A stretch of DNA of 64,000 nt. Origin: Limnoperna fortunei. Lineage: Eukaryota; Mollusca; Bivalvia; Mytilida; Modiolidae. Below are positions 6,316 to 58,985 of the stretch, in pieces; the stretch's first letter is position 1, and every line of letters begins with the position of its first letter. The stretch covers positions 28,556,452-28,620,451 of the forward strand of contig OX104124.1 of the NCBI GenBank assembly GCA_944474755.1, read 5' to 3'. Both the position numbers and the translations under genes were made by a program. A model generated the notes under the pieces. It was not told where the DNA came from. It made no database searches and saw only the letters and a program-made list of their open reading frames with translations.

Positions 6316-6434
6316 GTATAGAGTGATGTCATTCTTCAAGTACCATCGGCAGTTCTGGAAACTGTACATGAAATACCTGTCAGCAGCCATGTTTGTATCA
6401 TTTACTTCAATGCTGTGTGTCACGATGAGTGAAG
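6316..6434 (+). CDS. Gene X, internal exon (unrecognised protein)
   Basis: This is a candidate exon of 119 nt. It follows a TTGATAG acceptor and ends at GAAG before a GTAACT donor. In the open frame it reads YRVMSFFKYHRQFWKLYMKY, then an alternating hydrophobic stretch (AAMFVSFTSMLCVTMSE). It starts with one base of a split codon and ends with one base (G). That phase fits the next candidate exon at 8108 exactly, giving an Asp codon across the junction. The polypyrimidine tract is modest. I do not recognise the family. Composition and phase agreement argue for real coding sequence. Any 5' exons must lie within or beyond the satellite to the left. Confidence 0.5.
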
Positions 6435-6636
6435 GTAACTATGGTAACAGATCTCTGTTTATTCTTTTGTTTGCCAATACACACCTTGTCCATGATTTAC
6501 TTGCTTATTTGGATAACTTGCTTAGCAATTTTTGTGTATTACTGCAGTTATGGACCCATTGTCCACCTTTATCTCATACTTACTCTTGAAATGAGATCTA
6601 GTAGGATGTGATAAAAATGTGTTCAAATGGTTGACA

Positions 6637-8107: not shown

Positions 8108-8188
8108 ATTTGGTGGACTGGTTTAGAGGGTTCCACACAAAAATTGATGTGAAGAAGTTGGCTAAAGAATATGCCGATGACAGTAATA
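8108..8188 (+). CDS. Gene X, internal exon
   Basis: Exon of 81 nt with a good acceptor (CTGTTACAG) and a consensus donor (GTAAGT). Frame: two bases completing a split codon, then LVDWFRGFHTKIDVKKLAKE and YADDSN, then one base. The entry phase matches the exon ending at 6434 and the exit phase matches the exon at 8713. Three exons with compatible phase and no in-frame stop until the last are unlikely by chance. The family is not recognised. The peptide is charged and helix-like, as in the end of a soluble cytosolic protein. Confidence 0.6.
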
Positions 8189-8199
8189 GTAAGTTGTCT

Positions 8200-8303
8200 T
8201 AGAAAAATGATGTCCCTCCCCCTACCAAAAGATAGGAAAATGATGTCCCTCCCCTTACCAAAACATAGAAAAATGATGTCCCTCCCCCTACCAAAACATA
8301 GGT
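8200..8303. repeat. Three copies of a 33-bp unit
   Basis: TGATGTCCCTCCCC recurs at 8209, 8241 and 8274, spaced by AAAA-rich and CCAAAACATAG stretches. It begins about 20 bp after the gene X donor, so it lies in the intron. Confidence 0.85.
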
Positions 8304-9847: not shown

Positions 9848-11118
9848 AGCTCACCTGACCCAAAGGGTCATGTGAGCTATTGTTATCACTTTGCGTCCGT
9901 CGTCGTCGTCGTCGTCGTCGGCGTCGGCGTCTGTAAACTTTTTACATTTTAATCTTCTTCTCTGAAACCACTTGGCCAATTGAAACCAAACTTGGCCATA
10001 ATGTTCATTGGATGGACCTTTACAAAGTTTGTGTTTTTTATTTTGATTGGTAAACCAATATGGCCGCCACCTCAAGACTTAGTTTAACATAGGACCCTAT
10101 GGGAAAAAAGTTAAAAAGGGATTCTTCTCTGAAACCGTTTAACCAATCAAAACAAAACTTACTAGCAATATTGTTTAGATGGTCCTCTATAAAGTTTGTG
10201 TTTTAGATGGGAATTGGAAATTCAAAATGGCCGCTACTGCAGGACTTAGTTTAACATAGAACCCTATGGGAAAAAGTTTTAAAAGGCTTCTTCTCTGAAA
10301 CCGGTTAATCAATGGAAACAAAAACTTACTAGCAATATTGTTTGGATGGTCCTCTATAAAGTTAGTGTTTTTTATGGCAATTGGAAATTCAAAATGGCTG
10401 CCACCGCAGGACTTAATTTAACATAGGACCCTATGGGAAAAAGTTTGAAAGGCTTCTTTTCTGAAACCGGCCAACCAATGGAAACAAAACTTACTAGCAA
10501 TATTGTTTGGATGGTCCTCTATAAAGTTAATGTTTTTTATCCCAATCTGATATTCAAAATGGCCGCCACCGCAGGACTTAGTTTAACGTTGGAGCCTATG
10601 GGAAAAATGTTAAAAAGGGCTTCTTCTCTGAAACCGGTTAACCAATCAAAACAAAACTTACTAGCAATATTGTTTGGATGGTCCTTTATAAAGTTTATGA
10701 TTTTTATGCCAACTGGAAATTCAAAATGGCCACTACCGCAGGACTTAGTTTAACATAGGACCCTATGGGAAAAAGTTTTTAAAGGCTTCTTCTCTGAAAC
10801 CGGTTAATCAATGGAAACAAAAACTTACTAGCAATATTGTTTGGATGGTCCTCTATAAAGTTTATGTTTTTTATGGCAATTGGAAATTCAAAATGGCCAA
10901 CTCCCCCGCAGGACTTAGTTTAACATAGGACCCTATGGGCAAATAAAAAAAATCTCTATACAACTGGTTAACCAATGAAACAAAGCTTTCTAGTAATATT
11001 GTTTGGATGGTCCTATTTAAAGTTTATTGAAAATTACAGGACTTACTTTAACATCAGGGAAATGCCATCTTGCCTATAAAATCAGGTGAGCGATACAGGC
11101 TCTTAAGAGCCTCTGGTT
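9848..11118 (+). mobile_element. Arm-and-core repeat, copy 1 (Helentron/pearl-like)
   Basis: It begins with a nested hairpin, AGCTCACCTGACCC..GGGTCATGTGAGCT, and a CGTCGTCGTC tract. The core holds about six 166-bp tandem units marked TCTGAAACC and AATTCAAAATGGCCGCC. It ends CAGGTGAGCGATACAGGCTC TTAAGAGCCTCTGG, a terminal hairpin. GCTCACCTGA at the start and TCAGGTGAGC near the end are mutually inverted. Subterminal inverted repeats, a tandem core and a 3' hairpin are the architecture of DINE-1/pearl-type non-autonomous Helentron relatives. The assignment to that class is inference; the structure is directly visible. Confidence 0.8.
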
Positions 11119-18186: not shown

Positions 18187-20608
18187 AAGCATCAGTAGTT
18201 GTACAGTCAGTGGAGTCCACAGTAGGGTACAGTGTGGTCCACAGTAGTGGTACAGTCAGTGGAGTCCACAGTAAGGGTACAGTCAGTGGAGTCCACAGTA
18301 GGGGTACATTGTGGTCCACAGTATTGGTACAGTCAGTGGATTCCACAGTAGGGGTGCAGTGTTGTCCACAGTAGTGGTACAGTCAGTGGAGTCCACAGTA
18401 GGGGTACAGTGTGGTCCACAGTAGTGGTACAGTCAGTGGAGTCCACAGTAGGGTACAGTGTGGTCCACAGTAGTGGTACAGTCAGTTGAGTCCACAGTAG
18501 GGGTACAGTGTGGTCCACAGTAGTGGTACAGTCAGTGGAGTCCACAGTAGGGTACAGTGTGGTCCACAGTAGTGGTACAGTCAGTTGAGTCCACAGTAAG
18601 GGTACAGTCAGTGGAGTCCACCGTAGGGGTACAGTCAGTGGAGTCCACATAGGGGTACATGGTGGTCCACAGTAGTGGTACAGTGTGGTCCACAGTAGTG
18701 GTACAGTCAGTTGAGTCCACAGTAGGGGTACATTGTGGTCCACAGTAGTGGTACAGTCAGTGGAGTCCACAGTAGTGGTACAGTCAGTGGAGTCCACAGT
18801 AGGGTTACATTGTGGTCCACAGTAGTGGTACAGTGTTGTCCACATTAGTGGTACAGTCAGTGGAGTCCACAGTAGGGTACAGTGTGGTCCACAGTAGTGG
18901 TACAGTCATTGGAGTCCACAGTAAGGGTACAGTCAGTGGAGTCCACAGTAGGGGTACATTGTGGTCCACAGAAGTGGTACAGTCAGTTGAGTCCACAGTA
19001 GGGGTGCAGTGTTGTCCACAGTAGTGGTACAGTCAGTGGAGTCCACAGTAGGGGTACAGTCAGTGGAGTCCACAGTAGGGGTACATTGTGGTCCACAGTA
19101 GTGGTACAGTCATTGGAGTCCACAGTAGGGGTGCAGTGTTGTCCACAGTAGTGGTACAGTCAGTGGAGTCCACAGTAGGGGTACAGTCAGTGGAGTCCCC
19201 AGTAGGGGTACATTGTGGTCCACAGTAGTGGTACAGTCAGTTGAGTCCACAGTAGGGGTGCAGTGTTGTCCACAGTAGTGGTACATTGTGGTCCACAGTA
19301 GTGGTACATTGTGGTCCACAGTAGTGGTACAGTCAGTGGAGTCCACAGTAGGGGTACATTGTGGTCCACAGTAGTGGTACTGTCAGTGGAGTCCACAGTA
19401 GGGGTACAGTCAGTGGAGTCCACAGTAGTGGTACATTGTGGTCCACAGTAGGGTACAGTCAGTGGAGTCCACAGTAAGGGTACATTGTGGTCCACAGTAG
19501 TGGTACATTGTGGTCCACAGTAGTGGTACTGTCAGTGGAGTCCACAGTAGGGGTACAGTCAGTGGAGTCCACAGTAGGGGTACATTGTGGTCCACAGTAG
19601 TGGTACAGTGTGGTCCACAGTAGTGGTACTGTCAGTGGAGTCCACAGTAGGGGTACAGTCAGTGGAGTCCACAGTAGGGGTACATTGTGGTCCACAGTAG
19701 TGGTACAGTGTGGTCCACAGTAGTGGTACTGTCAGTGGAGTCCACAGTAGGGGTACATTGTGGTCCACAGTAGTGGTACATTGTGGTCCACAGTAGTGGT
19801 ACTGTCAGTGGAGTCCACAGTAGGGGTACAGTCAGTTGAGTCCACAGTAGGGGTGCAGTGTTGTCCACAGTAGTGGTACATTGTGGTCCACAGTAGTGGT
19901 ACAGTCAGTGGAGTCCACAGTAGGGGTACATTGTGGTCCACAGTAGTGGTACATTGTGGTCCACAGTAGTGGTACTGTCAGTGGAGTCCACAGTAGGGGT
20001 ACAGTCAGTGGAGTCCACAGTAGTGGTATATTGTGGTCCACAGTAGGGTACAGTCAGTGGAGTCCACAGTAGGGGTACATTGTGGTCCACAGTAGTGGTA
20101 CATTGTGGTCCACAGTAGTGGTACTGTCAGTGGAGTCCACAGTAGGGGTACAGTCAGTGGAGTCCACAGTAGGGGTACATTGTGGTCCACAGTAGTGGTA
20201 CAGTGTGGTCCACAGTAGTGGTACAGTCAGTGGAGTATTCAGTAGGGTACAGTGTGGTCCACAGTAGTGGTACAGTCAGTGGAGTCCACAGTAAGGGTAC
20301 AGTCAGTGGAGTCCACAGTAGGGGTACATTCAGTTGAGTCCACAGTAGGGGTGCAGTGTTGTCCACAGTAGTGGTACAGTCAGTGGAGTCCACAGTAGGG
20401 GTACAGTCAGTGGAGTCCACAGTAGGGATGCAGTGTTGTCCACAGTAGTGGTACAGTCAGTGGAGTCCACAGTAGGGGTACAGTCAGTGGAGTCCACAGT
20501 AGGGGTACATTGTGGTCCACAGTAGTGGTACAGTGTGGTCCACAGTAGGGGTACAGTCAGTGGAGTCCACAGTAGGGGTACAGTAGTGGTTCAGTCAGTG
20601 GAGTCCAT
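18187..20608. repeat. ~25-bp minisatellite built from two unit types
   Basis: Unit A is GTACAGTCAGTGGAGTCCAC plus AGTAGGG; unit B is GTACATTGTGGTCCACAGTA plus GTG, with a GTGCAGTGTTGTCCAC variant. They alternate in recurring blocks, such as A-A-B-B repeating about every 100 bp at 19380-20180. It ends about 120 bp before the C1GALT1-like exon. Minus-strand open frames with TVDSTDCTTTVDH peptides are repeat by-products. Confidence 0.95.
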
Positions 20609-20731: not shown

Positions 20732-21399
20732 TTTATGCAGACACTGCAATAGCTGACCAAATGTTCAAAAAAGTGAGAGTTTTGTGTTTGGTTATCACTG
20801 TTGAAAGCCATTTAGAAAAAGCTGTAAATGTAGTGAACATAACTTGGGGAAGCCGTTGTAATAAAATCATATATGTATTGTGTACAGATAAGAATGAGAA
20901 GGATTTTTTGAATTCATGCCATCTCAGAGAATCTAAAAGTCATTTGGTTGGGAAAGTTCGCTTTACATTTCGTCATGTGTATCAGCATTATGTTGACCAT
21001 TATGATTGGTTCTTAAAAGCAGATGATGACACGTATGTAATTATGGAAAATTTGAGATTTTTACTATCATTTCATAATCCTGACTTACCTGGTTACCTAG
21101 GGTACCATTTTAAAATGCATTTGAAGCAAGGATATATGAGTGGGGGCGCTGGTTACGTTATTAGTCGAAAAGGTGTGAAAAAGTTATTTGAGGATGGATT
21201 TAAAGTTGATGGTTGTGATGCTGATGGATATGATGAGGATCTAGAAATCGGAAGATGTCTACAGCGTGCTGGTGTGCCTCCTTTGGTATCTTATGACAAA
21301 TTTGGAAGAGAGACTTTTCATACCGATAAAATGTGGCAACATGTTTATGGAACATATCCTTCATATTTAAATAAATACTCATGGAATGGTTTGAGAAAT
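20732..21399 (+). CDS. C1GALT1: C1GALT1-like core-1 beta-1,3-galactosyltransferase, catalytic exon
   Basis: This exon encodes most of a GT31-family glycosyltransferase. In the known family this enzyme adds galactose to O-linked GalNAc (Tn antigen to core 1) in the Golgi lumen. The acceptor is TTTTTTTCAG. After two bases the frame reads YADTAIADQMFKKVRVLCLV. The donor GTAAGT follows Asn in phase 0. Counted from the Met at 20761, residues 85-93 give FLKADDDTYV-type metal binding (Asp 88-90), 125-132 give YMSGGAGY, and EDLEIGRCLQ lies near 160. One NIT glycosylation sequon is at 26-28. Together with the last exon, 279 codons are visible. The 5' exon for the cytosolic tail, membrane anchor and stem was not found in the upstream repeats. 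A paralogue such as a C1GALT1-like lineage copy is possible. Confidence 0.92.
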
Positions 21400-21498
21400 G
21401 TAAGTACACTGTAATTTATATATATATTTAGTAAGGAATTGGTTGATCAACAACTGCAGTTAACATTATGGCTATAGGGGATTTGTTCTTGGCCTGAC

Positions 21499-21850: not shown

Positions 21851-22196
21851 GATGGTTTTTTATTGTTTTTCATCACTAATTATGTATACTATTTTAGCTG
21901 AATGTACAGTATTTATTTGTTAATATGTCTGGCATAAATAGCTTGACGAATGAGAGAGAGGTATTATATATTATATTAAATAATTCACATATGAGTAAAA
22001 TATGACTTGTGTTAAAATTTGAAGGTAAGCAGTTAGAAGTGAAATGAATGAAAATAAAAGTTATCTATGCAAATGAACATGATACATAATATGATAAAAA
22101 TAACACAATAAGCTAATTTCACAAATATACTACATTATTTTTCCTAGTACAACATAGAAACATTGGTTAGCTGGGTGCAGATTGTTGTACATGTAT

Positions 22197-24141
22197 AAGT
22201 AGTTTTCTGTTATAATCCACCATGTTTATCTGTTTTCCAGGGTGCTGGTTGCTGTAGTATGTTTTCCTTAATATTCAACCATGTTTATCTGTTTTCCAGG
22301 GTGCTGGTTGCTGTAGTTAGTTTTCCTTAATAATCAACCATGTTTATTTGTTTTCCAGGGTGCTGGTTGCTGTAGTTAGTTTTCTGTTATAATCCACCAT
22401 GTTTATCTGTTTTCCAGGGTGCTGGTTGCTGTAGTATGTTTTCCTTAATATTCAACCATGTTTATCTGTTTTCCAGGGTGCTGGTTGCTGTAGTTTGTTT
22501 CCTTAATATTCAACCATGTTTATCTGTTTTCCAGGGTGCTGGTTGCTGTAGTTAGTTTTCTTTAATATTCAACCATGTTTATCTGTTTTCCAGGGTGCTG
22601 GTTGCTGTAGTATGTTTTCCTTAATATTCAACCATGTTTATCTGTTTTCCAGGGTGCTGGTTGCTGTAGTTAGTTTTCCTTAATATTCAACCATGTTTAT
22701 CTGTTTTCCAGGGTGCTGGTTGCTGCAGTTAGTTTTCCTTAATATTCAACCATGATTATCTGTTTTCCAGGGTGCAGGTTGCTGTAGTATGTTTTCCTTA
22801 ATATTCAACCATGTTTATCTGTTTTCCAGGGTGCTGGTTGCTGTATAGTATGTTTTCCTTAATATTCAACCATATTTATCTGTTTTCCAGGGTGCTGGTT
22901 GCTGTAGTTAGTTTTCCTTAATATTCAACCATGTTTATCTGTTTTCCAGGGTGCTGGTTGCTGTAGTTTGTTTTCCTTAATATTCAACCATGTTTATCTG
23001 TTTTCCAGGGTGCTGGTTGCTGTAGTTAGTTTTCTGTTATAATCCACCATGTTTATCTGTTTTCCAGGGTGCTGGTTGCTGCAGTTAGTTTTCCTTAATA
23101 TTCAACCATGTTTATCTGTTTTCCAGGGTGCTGGTTGCTGTAGTTAGTTTACCTTAATATTCAACCATGTTTATCTGTTTTCCAGGGTGCTGGTTGCTGT
23201 AGTTAGTTTTCCTTAATATTCAACCATGTTTATCTGTTTTCCAGGGTGCTGGTTGTTGCAGTTAGATTTCCTTAATATTCAACCATGTTTATCACCATGT
23301 TTATCTGTTTTCCAGGGTGCTGATTGCTGCAGTTAGTTTTCCTTAATATTCAACCATGATTATCTGTTTTCCAGGGTGCAGGTTGCTGTAGTATGTTTTC
23401 CTTAATATTCAACCATGTTTATCTGTTTTCCAGGGTGCTGGTTGCTGTAGTATGTTTTCCTTAATATTCAACCATGTTTATCTGTTTTCCAGGGTGCTGG
23501 TTGCTGTAGTTAGTTTTCCTTAATATTCAACCATATTTATCTGTTTTCCAGGGTGCTGGTTGCTGTAGTTTGTTTTCCTTAATATTCAACCATGTTTATC
23601 TGTTTTCCGGGGTGCTGGTTGCTGTAGTTAGTTTCCTGTTATAATCCACCATGTTTATCTGTTTTCCAGGGTGCTGGTTGCTGCAGTTAGTTTTCCTTAA
23701 TATTCAACCATGTTTATCTGTTTTCCAGGGTGCTGGTTGCTGTAGTTTGTTTTCCTTAATATTCAACCATGTTTATCTGTTTTCCAGGGTGCTGGTTGCT
23801 GTAGTTAGTTTCCTGTTATAATCCACCATGTTTATCTGTTTTCCAGGGTGCTGGTTGCTGCAGTTAGTTTTCCTTAATATTCAACCATGTTTATCTGTTT
23901 TCCAGGGTGCTGGTTGCTGTAGTTAGTTTACCTTAATATTCAACCATGTTTATCTGTTTTCAAGGGTGCTGGTTGCTGTAGTTAGTTTTCCTTAATATTC
24001 AACCATGTTTATCTGTTTTCAAGGGTGCTGGTTGCTGTAGTTAGTTTTCCTTAATATTCAACCATGTTTATCTGTTTTCAAGGGTGCTGGTTGCTGTAGT
24101 TAGTTTTCCTTAATATTCAACCATGTTTATCTGTTTTCAAG
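22197..24141 (+). repeat. 59-bp array copying the splice acceptor and start of the C1GALT1 last exon
   Basis: Thirty-two tandem units precede the real last exon. Each has TTTATCTGTTTTCCAG, then GGTGCTGGTTGCTGTAGT, then about 25 bp ending in CAACCATG. This is the same order as the true junction (TTTTCAAG, then GGTGCTGGTTGCTGCAGT, then CAGTTTTCTG and CCACCATG). The exon part reads Gly-Ala-Gly-Cys-Cys-Ser, the conserved GCCS segment of the enzyme. Most units then have TAG in frame. One unit has CCGG in place of CCAG. The last three array units and the real exon share CAAG. One unit carries a 12-bp insertion near 23293. Confidence 0.95.
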
Positions 24142-24315
24142 GGTGCTGGTTGCTGCAGTCAGTTTTCTGTAACATTCCACCATGTTAATCCACAGACGAT
24201 GCTATTTATGGATCATTTGCTGTACAGGACAAGTGTCTATGGCAGAAATACACCCACAGACATCAATGATATATTTCCACAAGCAAAAGTATTACCTCTT
24301 GATATGAAGCATTAG
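24142..24315 (+). CDS. C1GALT1: C1GALT1-like gene, last coding exon
   Basis: It begins directly after the last array acceptor (TTTTCAAG) in phase 0, matching the phase-0 donor at 21400. It reads GAGCCSQFSVTFHHVNPQTM and continues for 37 more codons to a TAG stop. This agrees with the family C-terminus, where a GCCS motif is followed by an SFHYV-like strand and a helical segment rich in Tyr and Leu. The C-terminal tail is shorter than in vertebrate enzymes. The exon was not obvious as a Met-initiated frame and was found by the junction. It is the only unit of the array that stays open past the repeat. Confidence 0.88.
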   Translation, partial: GAGCCSQFSVTFHHVNPQTMLFMDHLLYRTSVYGRNTPTDINDIFPQAKVLPLDMKH

Positions 24316-30375: not shown

Positions 30376-31643
30376 TAGCTCACCTGACCCAAAGGGTCAT
30401 GTGAGCTATTGTTATCACTTTGCGTCCGTCGGCGTCGTCGTCGGCGGCGGCGTCTGTAAACTTTTTACATTTTAATCTTCTTCTCTGAAACCACTTGGCC
30501 AATTGAAACCAAACTTGGCCATAATGTTCATTGGATGGACCTTTACAAAGTTTGTGTTTTTTATTTTGATTGGTAAACCAATATGGCCGCCACCTCAGGA
30601 CTTAGTTTAACATAGGACCCTATGGGAAAAAAGTTAAAAAGGGCTTCTTCTCTGAAACCGTTTAACCAATCAAAACAAAACTTACTAGCAATATTGTTTG
30701 GATGGTCCTCTATAAAGTTTGTTTTTGATGGGATTCGGAAATTCAAAATGGCCGCCACCTCAGGACTTAGTTTAACATAGAACCCTATGGGAAAAAGTTT
30801 TAAAAGGCTTCTTCTCTGAAACCAGTTAATCAATGGAAACAAAAACTTACTAGCAATATTGTTTGGATGGTCCTCTATTAAGTTTGTGTTTTTTATGGCA
30901 ATTGGAAATTCAAAATGGCTGCCACCGAGGACTTAATTTAACATAGGACCCTATGGGAAAAAGTTTGAAAGGCTTCTTTTCTGAAACCGGTCAACCAATG
31001 GAAAGAAAACTTACTAGCAATATTGTTTGGATGGTCCTCTATAAAGTTAATGTTTTTTATCCCAATCGGAAATTCAAAATGGCCGCCACCGCAGGACTTG
31101 GTTTAACATTCGACCCCATGAGAAAAAAGTTTAAAAGGGCTTCTTCTCTGAAACCGTTTAAGCAATCAAAACAAAACTTACTAGCAATACTGTTTGGATG
31201 GTCCTCTATAAAGTTTATGTTTTTTATGGCAATTGGAAATTCAAAATGGCCGCTAGCGCAGGACTTAGTTTAACATATGACCCTATGGGAAAAAGTTTTT
31301 AAAGGCTTTTTCTCTGAAACCGGTTAATCAATGGAAACAAAAACTTACTAGCAATATTGTTTGGATGGTCCTCTATAAAGTTTATGTTTTTTATGGCAAT
31401 TGGAAATTCAAAATGGCCACCACCGCCGCAGGACTTAGTTTAACATAGGACCCAATGGCGAATAAAAAAAATCTTCTCTATACAACGGGTTAACCAATGA
31501 AACAAAGCTTTCTAGTAATATTGTTTGGATGGTCCTATTTAAAGTTTATTGAAAATTACAGGGCTTACTTTAACATCAGGGAAATGCCATCTTCATTGCC
31601 TATAAAATCAGGTGAGCGATACAGGCTCTTAAGAGCCTCTGGT
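30376..31643 (+). mobile_element. Arm-and-core repeat, copy 3 (sister of copy 1)
   Basis: It has the same arms and the same order of 166-bp core variants as copy 1, in the same orientation about 20.5 kb away. Examples are the CTTGGCCATAATGTTCATTG first unit and the GAAAATTACAGG last unit. The end is CAGGTGAGCGATACAGGCTC TTAAGAGCCTCTGG. The two copies bracket the visible C1GALT1-like exons as direct repeats of about 1.27 kb. Confidence 0.85.
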
Positions 31644-44097: not shown

Positions 44098-44217
44098 ATG
44101 ATAATTCTAACAAGTATTAGGTCGGCGGTATGAGGTGTTTAATTTTCAAAACATCATTTTCAATTTCTTGAGAAGAAATAAAAAGTAAAATAACTAAACA
44201 ATTGTCTTTTTTTTCAG

Positions 44218-45549
44218 CAGGATATGGAAACAACTGCTAACATTTGTAAAAAGAAAATCTTTCCGTTCCCAACAGAACACGAAGTAGACCGAGCCCGAAA
44301 TGTGTTCATAACTAGATTTATTGCTAGATTTGTTCAAAAACATAAAAAGTATATACAGTTACTTCATGAAAATGGCTCATCACTTCCGGAAGCATTTAGT
44401 AACTTCTCTGTTAATGTCTGTGAGTCATTTGAAGACGAGGTTGACATGATTATCAGTGAAAAAAGAAACAAAATAAAGAACGCATGCCGAATAAAAGGGG
44501 TTTACAGTGTTAAAGGACTATTTCGACAAGTTTATCAAATAGTCCGTCGAGCACGGGCTGCAAGAATAGAAAGTAAACTAACTGACGTTTCAAAGCAAGA
44601 TATAATGGATTCGTTAACCGATATAGCAAACGAGTTGGCGTATGCGTATGAATATCAAATTGTGATGCTTATATCGGAACAGGAAGTGCGACAACTAGCA
44701 GACCAAGCTGTCAGTTGTGTTATGAACTATTTAAAACATTCGGATGCCCTTTTTCTTAGGTGTAACATTTTAGAGGCATTAACTGACGTTCCACCCAGAA
44801 AAAGCTTTCGAAGAGCAGAAAAAGTTTCAACAAGGATAATGAAAATTGATGGCATAAAAGGAAACAGATATCAAAAATGGTGTTTGTCGGAAGTTTTCAA
44901 ACAACCTGGTCTACGTATGCCGAAACTGAACAGTAGTGGTTATGTGTTTTATGGCTGCTTTACTCCATATGGAAGTTTATGCAGACCAAACAAATACGGA
45001 TTTCGTGGACCAATACATGTTTGGGATGAGAAGCAGTCGAAATTTGTTCTCTTATTTAATGACCAGGTTTCGGTTAGCCCTAAACATCGTACTGAAATTG
45101 CACGAGACCCAACCGATGTTCACCAAAACTATGAACCAGTCATGCTTTGTGCACATTTTGAACCTGATTTATGTGTCTCGTCTGAAAATTTAGAATGCAA
45201 TAAAGGAAGAAATAATCAAGAATCGCATTCAACTAGCCAGGAAGATAAATCTGAGCCTGACCTCAATTTCCCATCTGATGAAATTTTAGAATGCAAAAAA
45301 GAAAGAAATTACCAAAACATGCATTTAACTTTCCAGAAAGATGTTTCTGAAACCGATCAATCTGTCTCGCCTGAAATCTTATTAGTCAATACAGAACGAA
45401 ATCATGAAGAATCTCTTTCAACTTTCCAGAAAGATATATCTGAACCCGATCTATCAATATCGATTGGAATTGTAGAATGCAATAAAGAAAAAAATAATCA
45501 AGAATCGCATTCAACCTTGCAGGAAGAAATATCTGAGGCCAAATGGTAG
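44218..45549 (+). CDS. Orphan 441-residue protein with four C-terminal repeats
   Basis: The coding region starts at ATG 44224, seven bases after the first AG of a tandem CAGCAG acceptor, and runs uninterrupted to TAG at 45547. I do not recognise the family. Residues 15-190 are Arg/Lys-rich and predicted helical (RFIARFVQKHKKYIQLLHEN; RQVYQIVRRARAARIESKL). Residues 205-305 look like a compact domain with conserved-looking aromatics (WCLSEVFKQPGLRMPK, YVFYGCFTPYGSLCRPNKYG, FVLLFNDQVSVSP). From 312 to the end are four imperfect ~33-residue units of the type EPDL..SxExLECNKxRNNQES, acidic and Ser-rich. No signal peptide or membrane segment is seen. A 5' UTR intron is implied. The open length and codon structure make it the most secure protein gene here after C1GALT1. 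Confidence 0.8.
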   Translation, partial: QDMETTANICKKKIFPFPTEHEVDRARNVFITRFIARFVQKHKKYIQLLHENGSSLPEAFSNFSVNVCESFEDEVDMIISEKRNKIKNACRIKGVYSVKGLFRQVYQIVRRARAARIESKLTDVSKQDIMDSLTDIANELAYAYEYQIVMLISEQEVRQLADQAVSCVMNYLKHSDALFLRCNILEALTDVPPRKSFRRAEKVSTRIMKIDGIKGNRYQKWCLSEVFKQPGLRMPKLNSSGYVFYGCFTPYGSLCRPNKYGFRGPIHVWDEKQSKFVLLFNDQVSVSPKHRTEIARDPTDVHQNYEPVMLCAHFEPDLCVSSENLECNKGRNNQESHSTSQEDKSEPDLNFPSDEILECKKERNYQNMHLTFQKDVSETDQSVSPEILLVNTERNHEESLSTFQKDISEPDLSISIGIVECNKEKNNQESHSTLQEEISEAKW

Positions 45550-50968: not shown

Positions 50969-53151
50969 CTATATAAGATGTATAAAAATGTGTATAACTT
51001 CAATATTATAATGGAAGTCTTTTCTATTATATGGAAAGTCCTTTGAAGAAAAATGTGCATGATTTCTGTATTTCTGTTCTTTAGCCTTTCCCAATAATGT
51101 TGCTTTACAACCTGGATTTGGTCCTTCAAACTTTTGTTCTTCAATTCTTAAAAGTTTACTTGACCATTTGATATTGAACAGTTTTTCTGTTTCCTTATTT
51201 ATCTCATCATCTTCGCTTTCATATTCAGACGATTCGTCCTCATCTATGTCAATGGTTTCTTGGAAATCTTCATCACTTTCATAATCTAGGTTTACAGTTT
51301 CATCCAAATCGATATCTTCGTCACACTGTTCATCGTCGCCTTGCTCAATTAACGTTCTTTTTGCACGTTTAGTATTTGATTTATTAGGGTCTGTATCAGC
51401 ATTATTACGCTTTTTTGCCATTTTTTTTCTTCGACGAGCAATCTCTATAAGTGACAGTTCATCTGATGTTGTGTCTTGACTGTTATAAATATTTGGGTTG
51501 ACTTCAATTTCATCTGCATTTACGGCAGTCTCTACTTTCTCATTATTACGTTTTTTTGCCATTCTTTTTCTTCGAAGAGCAATCTCTATATGTGGCAGTT
51601 CATCTGATGTTGTGTCTTGACTGTTATAAATATTTGGGTTGACTTCAATTTCATCTGCATTTAAGACAGTCTCAACTTTCTCATCTTTATCTTCAATATC
51701 TTTGTTTTGTTTCTCATCTTCATCTTCAACATTTTTGTTTTGTTTTTCATCTTTATCTTCGACATCTTTGTTTTGTTTCTCATCTTTATCTTTAACATCT
51801 TTGTTTTGTTTCACATCTTTATCTTCGACATCTTTGTTTTGTTTCACATCTTTATCTTCGACATCTTTGTTTTGTTTCTCATCTTTATCTTCAACATCTT
51901 TGTTTTGTTTCTCATCTTTATCTTCGACGTTTTGTTTCTCATCTTTACATGTGACATCTTTGTTTTGACTCTCATCTTTATCTTCAATGTCTTTGTTTTG
52001 TTTCTTATCCTTATCTCCCATATCTTTGTTTTGACTTGTAGTATCTTTATCTTCGACATCTTTGTTTTGTTTCTCATCTGTATCTTCGACATCTTTGTTT
52101 TGTTTCACATCTTTATCTTCGACATCTTTGTTTTGTTTCTCATCTTTATCTTCGACATCTTTGCTTTGTTTCTCATCTTTATCTTCGACATCTTTGTTTT
52201 GTTTCTCATCTTTATCTTCGACATCTTTGATTTGTTTCTCGTCTTTATCTTCGACATCTTTGTTTTGCTTTGCATCTTTATCCTCGACATCTTTGCTTTG
52301 TTTCTCATTTTTATCTTCAACATCTTTGTTTTGTTTCTCATCTTTATCTTCGACATCTTTGCTTTGTTTCTCATCTTTATCTTCGACATCTTTGTTTTGT
52401 TTCTCATCTTTATCTTCAACATCTTTGTTTTGTTTCTCATCTTTATCTTCAACATCTTTGTTTTGTTTCTCATCTTTATCTTCGACGTTTTGTTTCTCAT
52501 CTTTACCTGTGACATCTTTGTTTTGACTCTCATCTTTATCTTCAATGTCTTTGTTTTGTTTCTCATCTTTATCTCCCATATCATTGTTTAGGTTTGGAAA
52601 GTCATCTTGACTCTCCATTTCTGTCCACATACCTTCTGGTATTTCATTCCATTCCTTTTCATCGCAAATTAGTATTGGGACAAAATGATTTGGCTGAAAA
52701 ACTGTACCTACTCGGTTATCAAGATTACCATCCCTTGACCAAAGTATAAAGATAACTTTATTTATAGTCTCTTTCTTATTTGGCATCAGAACTGGAGCAA
52801 TCCTGGCATTAAATAAAGGACGGAGAGCCTTGTTTGCATCAGGATAAACAGACCAAATATTTGATTCTAGCACAGATGAAAGCGCAAATAAATGAATAAG
52901 TGCTGACCATGATCTTGGTTTTGTGGTATATAGTGCTTCTTTTTTAATGGAACCTACGTAATCATCGGTTTCACTGTAAAACTTGGAACATTTATCAGTA
53001 AGAGCAATGCTTTTGTATGTGTTAGTTGTCATCGTGGCATCTGGTGATTTAATGGCTTTGTCAAAGTTGGGATGTTTTGAATATAGATCTGCATTGATCA
53101 TTAATTCTGCAGCAGTCATTTCCCTTAGGAGTTTACTCAGAGATTCATTTC
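50969..53151 (-). CDS. OTU-type cysteine protease gene, exon 2
   Basis: It continues exon 1 (54316-54067). The junction G|GA restores Gly-Asn-Glu in the series TLIG-NESLSKLLREMTAAEL. Joined, the CDS is 811 codons. OTU proteases remove ubiquitin using a Cys-His pair; here the His is in FQPNHFVPIL (about residue 239 of the joined protein). Residues 85-245 complete the fold. From about 270 to 570 come ~27 copies of an 11-residue unit (DKDEKQNKDVE), then two ~45-residue repeats around NADEIEVNPNIYNSQDTTSD ending in basic RRKRMAKKR, an acidic stretch (DEDIDLDETVNLDYESDEDF) and a short tail. The basic runs could be nuclear signals. The domain arrangement resembles vertnin/OTU-like genes expanded in invertebrates; that link is inference. 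Confidence 0.75.
51680..52600. repeat. 33-bp coding minisatellite in the OTU gene
   Basis: Plus-strand unit CATCTTTATCTTCGACATCT TTGTTTTGTTTCT, 33 bp, always in frame. A distinctive block (DIEDKDESQNKDVT, then a shortened EKQNVEDKDEKQ) occurs twice about 540 bp apart, so a group of units was duplicated together. Long plus-strand frames over this region (FLIFIFDIFVLF type) are shadows. Confidence 0.92.
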
Positions 53152-53405
53152 CTAAAAGAGACATTATTTTGATTTTTAGACTTTTGTTTTGATTATGTAT
53201 ATATATTTTTTTTAACAATAGGCATCTGGTGATTTAATGGCTTTGTCAAAGTTGGGATGTTTTGAATATAGATCTGCATTGATCATTAATTCTGCAGCAG
53301 TCATTTCCCTTAGGAGTTTACTCAGAGATTCATTTCCTAAAAGAGACATTATTTTGATTTTTAGACTTTTGTTTTGATTATGTATATATATTTTTTTTAA
53401 CAATA
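53036..53405 (-). repeat. Identical 185-bp tandem duplication over the exon 2 acceptor
   Basis: 53036-53220 and 53221-53405 are the same base for base: about 70 bp of intron, the TCTCTTTTAG acceptor and the first ~115 bp of exon 2. The copy nearer exon 1 also has an intact acceptor, but its frame ends after SPDAYC at a TAA made by the junction. The inner copy is the one that continues to the full protein. Confidence 0.95.
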
Positions 53406-53439
53406 GGCAATAATGTGTCCTGTTAAATAAATGGATAAT

Positions 53440-56574: not shown

Positions 56575-58985
56575 TTATTGGTAAATATTTATTTATATTT
56601 ATTTATTGCAAACAAAATAACCTAAATAGGCTATAGCAATACAACATTTTAACAAAACATATAACATACAAGCATATATTCACATGTAACAAATATTGAC
56701 ATAAGATAACAAATTGCAAGTATGTATGGATTTGACCAGTATGGATCTTATTTTCGCAACTCCAAAGATTGCTTTATAAAATCTATAATAATGGGCAAAA
56801 CATTCATATCACAATTTAATATAGTTATAAGTTTATTAAAAGAGTCAAGCTGGTTAAAATCTAAGTTTATATTGGATAGTTTACTAAGAAAACTAGTCCT
56901 TATATCATTATTAAATTGACAATTAAAAAAGAAATGATTTTCATCATCTAAGACTTTACATAACCTGCAAAGTCTTTGTTCCCTGGGGATATTTTTATAT
57001 CTACCAAGCTCCATTTCCAAATTATGATCACTTATTCGGAACTTTGTAAGTATTTTGCGACTATTAAAGTTTGAGATTTTTAAGTATTGTGCTGGTTTAT
57101 TATCAAAATTTAATTTGCTAAAAAGGTAAAGTTAAGAGGTGTTATCAAAAGTTGAAATTTTATCAGTCAAGAGCTCATTATATTTTTCTTTAATACACTT
57201 TTCACTATGTCTTTTAACTTGTAATCTTATTTCTTTGAATGATTTATCAGGATGTTCAAAATCATTTTGTTCAAACTGATACTCATTCATAATGGAGGTT
57301 GCAAAACTGTACCATGTAGTTTTTTGCTAGTCAAAAAAGCTTCTCTAACTAGGGGATTGATTTCTTTTGAATTTATTCTTGCAAAATAGTTAGTTACTTG
57401 AGTTTTTATGAATGAATCCAGAGGCAACCTACCAAGTTCAGTTTTAGAATCAATATTGCTGGCTGTCTTTTTCACACCTAAAACATTTTTACAAAATTTG
57501 TTATGTACTTTCTCAAATGGAAATCTATCTACTAAAGATATTTTATCTACAATTTTGTCACTAATGATAGATCTTTTAACAGCATTGAAAATAGTAAAAT
57601 ATTCATCCATAAACCAGATTTCACTGTTATAGAGTAAAATTGGCCTAATTAAGGCATCAAATAATTTACAGGATATATTCACTGGAACATGTTTAAAATT
57701 GAACAAATATTTTTTAAACGAAAATAATGCCTTTAATCCCTTTTTTGAGAGTTCTTGTGAAGACTTTTTAAATTTTCCCTTTTGGTCTATAATATTTCCA
57801 AGAAAATTAAATTCTGTGACTTCTTGCAATATTTGCTGTTTATAATAAAAAATGTTATTTCTGGATTGATTTCCTCCTTTAAAAATCATTATTTTGGTTT
57901 TATTAATATTGACAGTTAACTGCCATTTATGACAATATTCTTCTATCTTTTCTAATGCCTTTTTCAAACCACCTGCTGACTCAGAAAAAAGAAGAAGATC
58001 ATCAGCAAAGCTCAATGAATTAATTTTTTTTTCATCAAGACATACAGGATCACAGGATGCATTGAATATCAAATGAAGATCATTAATAAAATAGTTAAAC
58101 AGAGTGGGGCTCAAGCTGTCCCCTTGTTTAACACCTCTTTCAACTTTAAAAAAATTTGAGTGTTTATTTTCAATTTTAACAGACGACTCCCAACATCTAT
58201 ACATGTCCTTAATAACATTAAATATTTTATAGCCTACTTCATTATTTCTTAACTTGTAAAGTAATCCATCATGCCACACAGTGTCAAATGCACGACGCAG
58301 ATCTACAAAACAAGAAAATATTTTCCCCCTTTTTTTAGTTAAATATTTATTAATAAGTGATTTCAATATGAATATGCTGTCTGTGGTTCTATGATTAACT
58401 CGAAAACCAAACTGCTGAATAGCAAACTTATTTTCATAAAAATTTACTAATCTTGAATTGATCACTGCACTAAACAGTTTGGCTATACAATTTTGTAAAG
58501 AAATTCCTCTATAATTGTTAACATTAAGTTTGTCTCCTGATTTATGAATGAGGATTATGAATGATTTTCTCCAATTAGCTGGATATTTTCCTTGCAAGTC
58601 ACAATACCACTGTATTTTATAATTTCATTGGAAATCTTATCTGGCCCAGCACATTTTACGTTCTTAATTTCTTTAAACATTTATTCACTTCGCTTATTGT
58701 GAATGGAGTATCGGTTAACTCGTTAGGTAAGGGAGACAAGTCAGAATCTTCTTCTACCTTTTCTTTAAAATCTTTATCAAAGTCAAGGGTTTCCCCTTGT
58801 GTTTTAAAATGGTTAGTAAGCTCAGTAAAACCAGCTTGAAGCTCTATGTTATAATTTGAATCTTCAAATTTTAGAGATTTTAATATTTTCCAATATTGCT
58901 TAGGGTTAGTGTCCCTTAATGTAGAAAGTTTATTTAAAAGCTCTTTTCTATATACTTGAGTTTTTTTCTTAATAAGTTTTTACAC
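56575..58985 (-). pseudogene. LINE reverse transcriptase, 5'-truncated and frameshifted
   Basis: Minus strand. The longest frame (58597-57287, 436 codons) is a non-LTR reverse transcriptase: FILIHKSGDKLNVNNYRGIS, catalytic Asp in FVDLRRAFDTVWH (residue 99), GVKQGDSLSPTLFNYFINDL and FADDLLLFS (199-200). Upstream in another frame is the preceding domain with CAGPDKISNEIIK, broken by two shifts near 58600-58670. Downstream frames give CRLCKVLDDENHFFFNC, a C-terminal Cys/His motif typical of L2/CR1-like LINEs, with a stop near 57135 and a shift near 57287. No endonuclease domain remains. The AT-rich end near 56575-56610 marks the 3' tail. It sits in the last intron of gene Z, same strand. Confidence 0.85.

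Follow-up and report, generated by a model that had tools for sequence, protein, structure and literature searches.

The last intron of a C1GALT1-like gene in the mussel Limnoperna fortunei carries tandem copies of its own 3' splice site, a layout that raises two questions: how the gene still reaches its real last exon, and whether the array is a device kept for its effect on splicing or a repeat that the gene tolerates. The choice that the spliceosome makes among identical neighbouring 3' splice sites is normally studied with artificial duplications. Here, we address both questions through a computational analysis of the 64-kb stretch of contig OX104124.1 that contains the gene, referred to below as the window.

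The gene and its true last exon

On sequence grounds, the gene is C1GALT1-like (GT31). Its product matches the solved C1GalT1 structure 7q4i (E 2.9e-57, residues 3-265), the protein encoded by exons 3 and 4 matches Fringe (PF02434), and both the DDD metal motif and the C-His are present, with ADDDTYV and TFHHV aligning with ADDDTYT and SFHYV of the Drosophila enzyme in the 7q4i alignment. The CCSD motif is absent and reads CCSQ instead, as in the scallop and oyster relatives P0006, P0007 and P0009; one study argues that this motif is structural and not essential (PMC11005171). Among the 120 matches listed of 2238, the nearest named relatives are Mytilus proteins, M. galloprovincialis P0003 reaching 75% compared with 60% for scallop P0006.

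The best of these 2238 protein matches (120 listed) is P0001, a protein of 343 aa that is 99% identical over the whole 279-aa query, and the coding exons, all on the plus strand, were placed with it by tblastn. The coding part of exon 1 (6326-6434; P0001 residues 1-36, 100% identity) ends at a donor at 6435 (AAG/GTAACT), and the codon split between exons 1 and 2 is GAT. Exon 2 (8108-8188; residues 37-63, 100%) lies between the acceptor ACAG/AT and a donor at 8189, and the codon split at its junction with exon 3 is ATT. Exon 3 (20732-21399) contains the DDD motif and most of the catalytic domain and is followed by a donor at 21400 (AAT/GTAAGT), while the true last exon, exon 4 (24142-24315), starts with GAGCCSQFSVTFHHV, carries the C-His in FHH and ends with the stop codon at 24313-24315. 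Two further repeats adjoin these exons: a second minisatellite with a different unit (18193-20589, plus strand) occupies part of the intron before exon 3 and ends ~140 bp before its acceptor, and a 33-bp three-copy repeat (8200-8301) begins 11 nt past the exon 2 donor, so that a second splice site of the gene borders a small array.

Joined together, the four exons encode 343 aa, of which 341 equal the residues of P0001, and the split codons fit; both differences fall in exon 3, and exon 4 has none over its whole length. Since the longest contig bearing P0001 measures 2,630 nt, against an exon span of 18 kb in the window, spliced RNA, either from this species or from a very close relative of it, must be the source of this protein (its source label, 'lgn', we take to denote assemblies of public sequencing reads). 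As judged from this protein, productive splicing to 24142 occurs, at a frequency that P0001 does not give.

Anatomy of the array

Tandem Repeats Finder places the 59-bp minisatellite at 22200-24190 on the plus strand (period 59, 33.5 copies, 92% matches, score 3320). In each unit, ~41-47 nt from the start of exon 4 precede a pyrimidine-rich tract of ~12-17 nt and, with one exception, an AG. A readout of every junction between the donor at 21400 and the true junction at 24142 yielded 32 decoys, from 22241 to 24083, and together the two approaches bear out the initial annotation, which had described some 32 tandem 59-bp copies of the junction followed by the real exon. Spacing is regular: the 34 matched junctions are separated by 33 steps, of which 29 measure 59 bp and the others 67 (from a decayed copy), 58, 61 and 71 bp. 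The decayed copy (22174-22240, plus strand) has an exon-head-like GGTGCAGATTGTTGTA with CTG in place of the acceptor AG, followed by the tract that precedes the first decoy, and its acceptor score is -5.1 (all splice-site scores in this work use vertebrate frequencies, not mussel ones).

The last intron triplet is CAG in 28 decoys, AAG in three and CGG in one. The units headed by decoy junctions 1-29 (22241-23964, plus strand) comprise all 28 CAG copies and the CGG copy at 23611, and the last three (23965-24141, plus strand; junctions at 23965, 24024 and 24083) read AAG like the true acceptor, which forms the 3' edge of the last unit at 24142. The earlier statement that nearly all copies keep their AG thus stands for 31 of the 32, the exception being the CGG copy, and the decayed copy at 22174 lacks it as well; likewise, the real site does have the weaker CAAG, but it shares this weak AAG with three decoys.

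An exon head is recognisable in every unit and the consensus acceptor scores 9.96 (vertebrate weights), so the array is not a product of chance. The 29 units of exactly 59 bp differ from each other by 5.9% on average and from their consensus by 3.4%, whereas the decoys differ from the true exon head by a mean of 17% over 43 nt (range 12-51%, ungapped and with indel-bearing units included), which suggests that the founding duplication is older than the last homogenisation. When the array DNA was searched against its own genome it matched only itself, in a search that skips very common words, and RNA families and tRNAs were absent from the 64-kb window. Tandem arrays are where mis-assembly usually occurs, and an assembly error could in principle account for the length or even the existence of this one. 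However, the 32 units comprise 19 distinct sequences whose order shows no periodicity, the contig measures 65 Mb in an assembly of 285 contigs and 1.335 Gb, and the same kind of array appears in gene models of M. coruscus (see below), all of which makes an artefact extremely improbable.

Products of joining a decoy

Whichever of the 32 decoys the donor of exon 3 is joined to, the part encoded by exons 3 and 4 would comprise 228-267 residues instead of 279. All 32 products are truncated and none keeps the C-His of TFHHV. After 21 of the decoys the frame stops following six codons (Gly-Ala-Gly-Cys-Cys-Ser), and after the other 11 it reaches other stops; two units, within the class of 21 or beyond it, read Gly-Ala-Asp or Cys-Cys-Ile instead. 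In the earlier view, each copy encodes this hexapeptide and most copies then stop at once; the immediate stop is seen in the 21 and not in the 11 that run on, and the two variant units depart from the hexapeptide. The predicted loss of 51 residues is right for the commonest decoy product (228 versus 279 aa). Without the metal-coordinating histidine, each of these products should be catalytically dead.

Classical nonsense-mediated decay (NMD) depends on an exon junction downstream of the stop codon. The decoys lengthen only the last exon, so that the early stop would have no exon junction after it and classical, junction-dependent NMD is not expected. A truncated form was not found among the 120 matches listed of 2238, an absence that is weak evidence, as short-read assemblies break at repeats and the database is clustered at 90%.

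Two other kinds of splice site were considered and rejected. A recursive (zero-exon) splice site is an acceptor directly followed by a donor, AG/GTRAGT, and the 31 AG decoys read AG/GGTGC. Donor-like sites in the array score at most 4.64 with the vertebrate weights, the best being GTATGT or GTTAGT some 16 nt into the unit; over 22241-24083, we count seven GTATGT and twenty GTTAGT at ~16 nt past the decoy acceptors, weak sites at which micro-exons of 16 nt would end. NAGNAG and other short tandem acceptors resemble the mussel array in that several acceptors compete for one donor, but their geometry does not fit: as described, NAGNAG-type sites lie 3, 6 or 9 nt apart and cause small in-frame changes, whereas here 32 decoys are spaced at 59 nt and all truncate the protein.

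The uniform outcome of decoy joining could nonetheless be put to use. Under a dosage control, a share of the transcripts would be joined to one of the 31 AG decoys, the outcome being either an inactive, shortened enzyme or an unstable mRNA, and copy number would set the enzyme level. In its favor, every decoy product lacks the counterpart of the Drosophila C1GalT1 His324, which coordinates Mn2+ (PMC9065035), 28 decoys outscore the true site with vertebrate weights, and the length of a human splice-site minisatellite, that of ABCA7, correlates with splicing and expression (PMC5954066). Against it speak the lack of a truncated form among the 120 matches listed of 2238, the position of the stop in the last exon, where junction-dependent NMD is not expected, and decoys that show no significant conservation (see below). 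We consider dosage control unlikely; regulation through decoys is possible but unproven.

Splice-site strength and RNA folding

With the vertebrate weights, 27 of the CAG decoys score 9.96 and one 10.56, compared with 4.97 for the true site and the three AAG decoys and 2.31 for the CGG copy. On the same scale the other acceptors of the gene reach 12.04 (exon 3) and 3.21 (exon 2), and those of six paralogues at the same intron position, all CAG or TAG, 7.26-11.87. On strength alone, the decoys should be preferred to the true site; however, the exon 2 acceptor scores only 3.21, and a weak score is thus not enough to call a site unused. Position is a possible answer, in that only the true site precedes an intact exon and a poly(A) region.

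Folding offers another. In most decoys the AG would lie inside a hairpin, CCAG-GGUG-CUGG, that the CAAG of the true site cannot form, so that the latter would be the more accessible of the two. The predicted fold of the 19-nt junction is -4.8 kcal/mol with CCAG versus 0.0 with CAAG, the exact hairpin is kept in 25 of the 32 decoys, and a fold this stable with its AG paired was found at 2 of the 274 acceptor-like sites of a 200-kb genome sample (described below). At 37 °C, the predicted chance that the AG is unpaired averages 2% (1-6%) in the 28 CAG decoys versus 7-14% at the four AAG sites, but at 15 °C the values for the CAG decoys (0-6%, mean 1%) overlap those for the AAG sites (2-9%). Moreover, the three AAG decoys lack the mask just as the true site does, and bound proteins easily open a 4-bp stem. 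Since the AG of the ordinary exon 3 acceptor is itself predicted to be unpaired only 7% of the time at 37 °C (2.5% at 15 °C), and that of exon 2 16% at 37 °C, the folding case is suggestive only; the hairpin having been noticed after the fact, we give masking of the decoys a slim chance.

Genomic background, paralogues and selection

As background, we sampled 20 random 10-kb stretches from five contigs (200 kb) and recorded minisatellites with periods of 15-400 bp. The sample contained 58 arrays that cover 28.6 of the 200 kb (14%), seven of them at least 1 kb long, and the window contains 29 arrays over 18.9 of its 64 kb. None of the 58 sampled units attained an acceptor score of 9.96 (vertebrate weights); the best among the 12 sampled arrays with at least 10 copies was 7.84, and among the window arrays with at least 10 copies the next best after the 59-bp array was 6.63, both with the same weights. 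Large arrays are, on this coverage, routine in the genome, and a unit made of a splice junction is not.

Several other repeats and open frames were seen in the window. A 167/332-bp tandem repeat occurs twice, at 9954-11027 and, 20 kb away, at 30477-31549; the two copies have almost identical consensus sequences (CTTCTTCTCTGAAACCGGTTAACC...) and are perhaps a mobile element with internal tandem repeats. On the minus strand, a 754-aa open frame (50969-53233) contains ~28 copies of an 11-residue charged repeat, KDVEDKDEKQN, and has no Pfam match; its N-terminal side is overlapped by an exact 185-bp tandem duplication (53036-53409, 100% matches) that is possibly very young. A reverse-transcriptase open frame (57287-58624, minus strand; RVT_1, E 1.1e-38) marks a retrotransposon remnant or copy.

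P0001 matches 21 places in its own genome, four of which are the exons of the C1GALT1-like gene itself and the other 17 paralogous loci. The last exon could be read in six of them (L003, L008, L010, L015, L021 and L022; for L021 and L022 the scan covered the 1.5 kb before the acceptor), and in all six the junction 20-mer at the same intron position occurs once per locus and no tandem repeat crosses the acceptor. L003 does contain two repeats nearby, each in two copies: one of 40 bp covers the end of its last exon, and one of 173 bp stops 380 bp short of the acceptor. An origin of the array from a paralogue was rejected, as the array DNA matches itself only, the nearest paralogues are ~40-45% identical and the six junctions are single.

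Selection on the acceptors was tested through column variability in 29 of the 32 units, the three with indels being left out. Variable columns make up 5 of the 29 in the acceptor and exon head (unit positions 45-59 and 1-14) versus 11 of the 30 elsewhere, a difference that is not significant (Fisher p = 0.14), and the AG is intact in 31 of 32 decoys versus ~30 expected from the mean divergence of 3.4%. Neither retention nor purging of the decoys is clearly indicated.

The orthologous junction in Mytilus coruscus

A check of orthologues had been proposed in the initial annotation. In M. coruscus, the homologue of exon 3 leads into a tandem series of this exon head, GGGCCSQFSVTFHHVNP, in two gene models: P0004, of 414 aa, has six copies in frame plus three frame-shifted, and P0121, of 595 aa, has four. 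Both are computed models that may read intron as exon, so that what they make visible is the repeated DNA and not its translation, and they presumably lie on the same contig (834,524 bp for both). Residues 282-564 of P0121 match window positions 44356-45204 at 65%, within a gene on the same strand ~20 kb downstream of the C1GALT1-like gene; because P0121 thus continues into the homologue of the downstream gene, gene order supports orthology. In the window, this gene corresponds to an open frame at 44194-45549 that has no Pfam match and whose homologue is fused to the C1GALT1 model P0121 in M. coruscus.

The tandem exon heads indicate that amplification of this junction also took place in Mytilus, a second mussel genus. 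An array already present in the common ancestor of L. fortunei and Mytilus, functional and kept by selection, would account both for the copies in P0004 and P0121 and for their place at the ortholog, with P0121 running into the downstream homologue. However, the M. coruscus repeats are spaced differently, with in-frame distances of 23 and 26 codons, or of 49-50 codons where two units are taken together, versus 59 bp here. These units also closely resemble the M. galloprovincialis exon (P0003), as expected of a separate or recently reseeded amplification, although gene models favor open frames, and the M. galloprovincialis protein is normal (P0003, P0005), as seen at the protein level. Given the differing spacings and this closeness, we rate a single ancient array and an amplification that was repeated or recently reseeded as equally likely, and we find an ancient array maintained for its function distinctly unlikely. 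The repeat part of P0004, used as a query, matched P0004, P0121 and, weakly, the normal protein P0005 (8000 candidates scored), and a 98-aa query of the M. coruscus repeats gave no match at E <= 0.001 among 727 candidates.

Known splice-site minisatellites

Minisatellites built on splice sites have been described in two human genes. Intron 18 of ABCA7 contains a 25-bp VNTR that starts with the exon 18 splice donor and ranges from ~12 to 427 copies; one isoform retains exactly one unit, and longer arrays are associated with more exon 19 skipping and lower expression (PMC5954066). Like the mussel array, it is a minisatellite built on the splice site of a real junction, but it lies on the donor side, begins at the GT, includes no exon, is polymorphic and has been measured in RNA, whereas the mussel array lies on the acceptor side, combines exon head and acceptor and is known from DNA. 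In CBS, a 31-bp VNTR, c.1444_1467+7(16_21), lies across a donor junction in 16-21 copies (PMC2630376). Its units, composed of 24 nt of exon and 7 of intron according to the name, span an exon-intron junction and are not a multiple of three, as in the mussel, on the donor side instead of the acceptor side of a last exon. Going by the title of a 2001 study by Lievers, the CBS VNTR is reportedly linked to lower enzyme activity. Among molluscs, a polymorphic intronic minisatellite is also found in intron 3 of an abalone TSSK1-like gene (27-bp unit), with no splice junction mentioned in the unit in the excerpted text (PMC6905558).

Compared with the human arrays, the mussel array has splice-site-like units (AG in 31 of 32 decoys and an exon head in each) built on an acceptor and not on a donor. 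It thus mirrors, on the acceptor side, what the VNTRs of ABCA7 and CBS are on the donor side. The initial annotation had known of no described case of this form. For acceptors this goes uncontradicted, as we found no description of a tandem acceptor array among the titles and abstract openings listed from the open-licence literature, but the donor-side equivalents in ABCA7 and CBS are published.

Discussion

Three explanations had been offered for the array, namely tuning of enzyme level by unproductive splicing, production of a truncated protein and tolerated expansion. The last fits best: we favor the view that the array is probably a minisatellite that was seeded on an intron-exon junction and is near-neutral, being tolerated and not selected. 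This is favored because minisatellite expansion is routine in the genome, which holds many kilobase-sized arrays, because the acceptors are not significantly conserved, their AG being kept at the rate that divergence predicts, and because a correctly spliced protein exists; the six readable paralogue junctions, all single and outside tandem repeats, also count for it.

A short tandem duplication would have captured the 3' end of the last intron, with its pyrimidine tract and AG, together with ~41-47 nt at the start of the last exon, and unequal exchange or slippage would then have expanded it to ~33 units and kept these similar. The copy pattern suggests that the true acceptor, as the 3' edge of the last unit, was remade by the same turnover, which would explain the AAG that it has in common with its three upstream neighbours. 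Judging by the one spliced protein, P0001, this last acceptor appears to be reached often enough for the enzyme, most likely because it is the sole one before an intact exon and a poly(A) region, while the upstream decoys probably cost some transcripts.

Three points weigh against tolerance. A random event rarely hits the same junction twice, as the M. coruscus models would require, unless the array is inherited or the site locally prone; tolerance has to explain why 28 CAG decoys scoring 9.96-10.56 do not win over a true AAG at 4.97 (vertebrate weights); and the acceptor core varies less than the rest of the unit, if not significantly. A bolder reading takes the array as a splicing device kept in mussels, in which a train of strong but masked CAG sites would guard a weak, unmasked AAG, array length and RNA folding, and hence temperature, would set the amount of C1GALT1-like enzyme, and the junction would have been amplified repeatedly in Mytilidae. 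We regard this as a long shot.

As a tolerated minisatellite, the array illustrates that minisatellite growth can swallow a splice junction, leaving a functional site that is the last repeat unit and evolves with the array. It also provides a natural experiment, in which ~32 near-identical acceptors with small differences precede the true site of a gene that is still spliced productively, and in which a second mussel genus carries its own array at the same junction.
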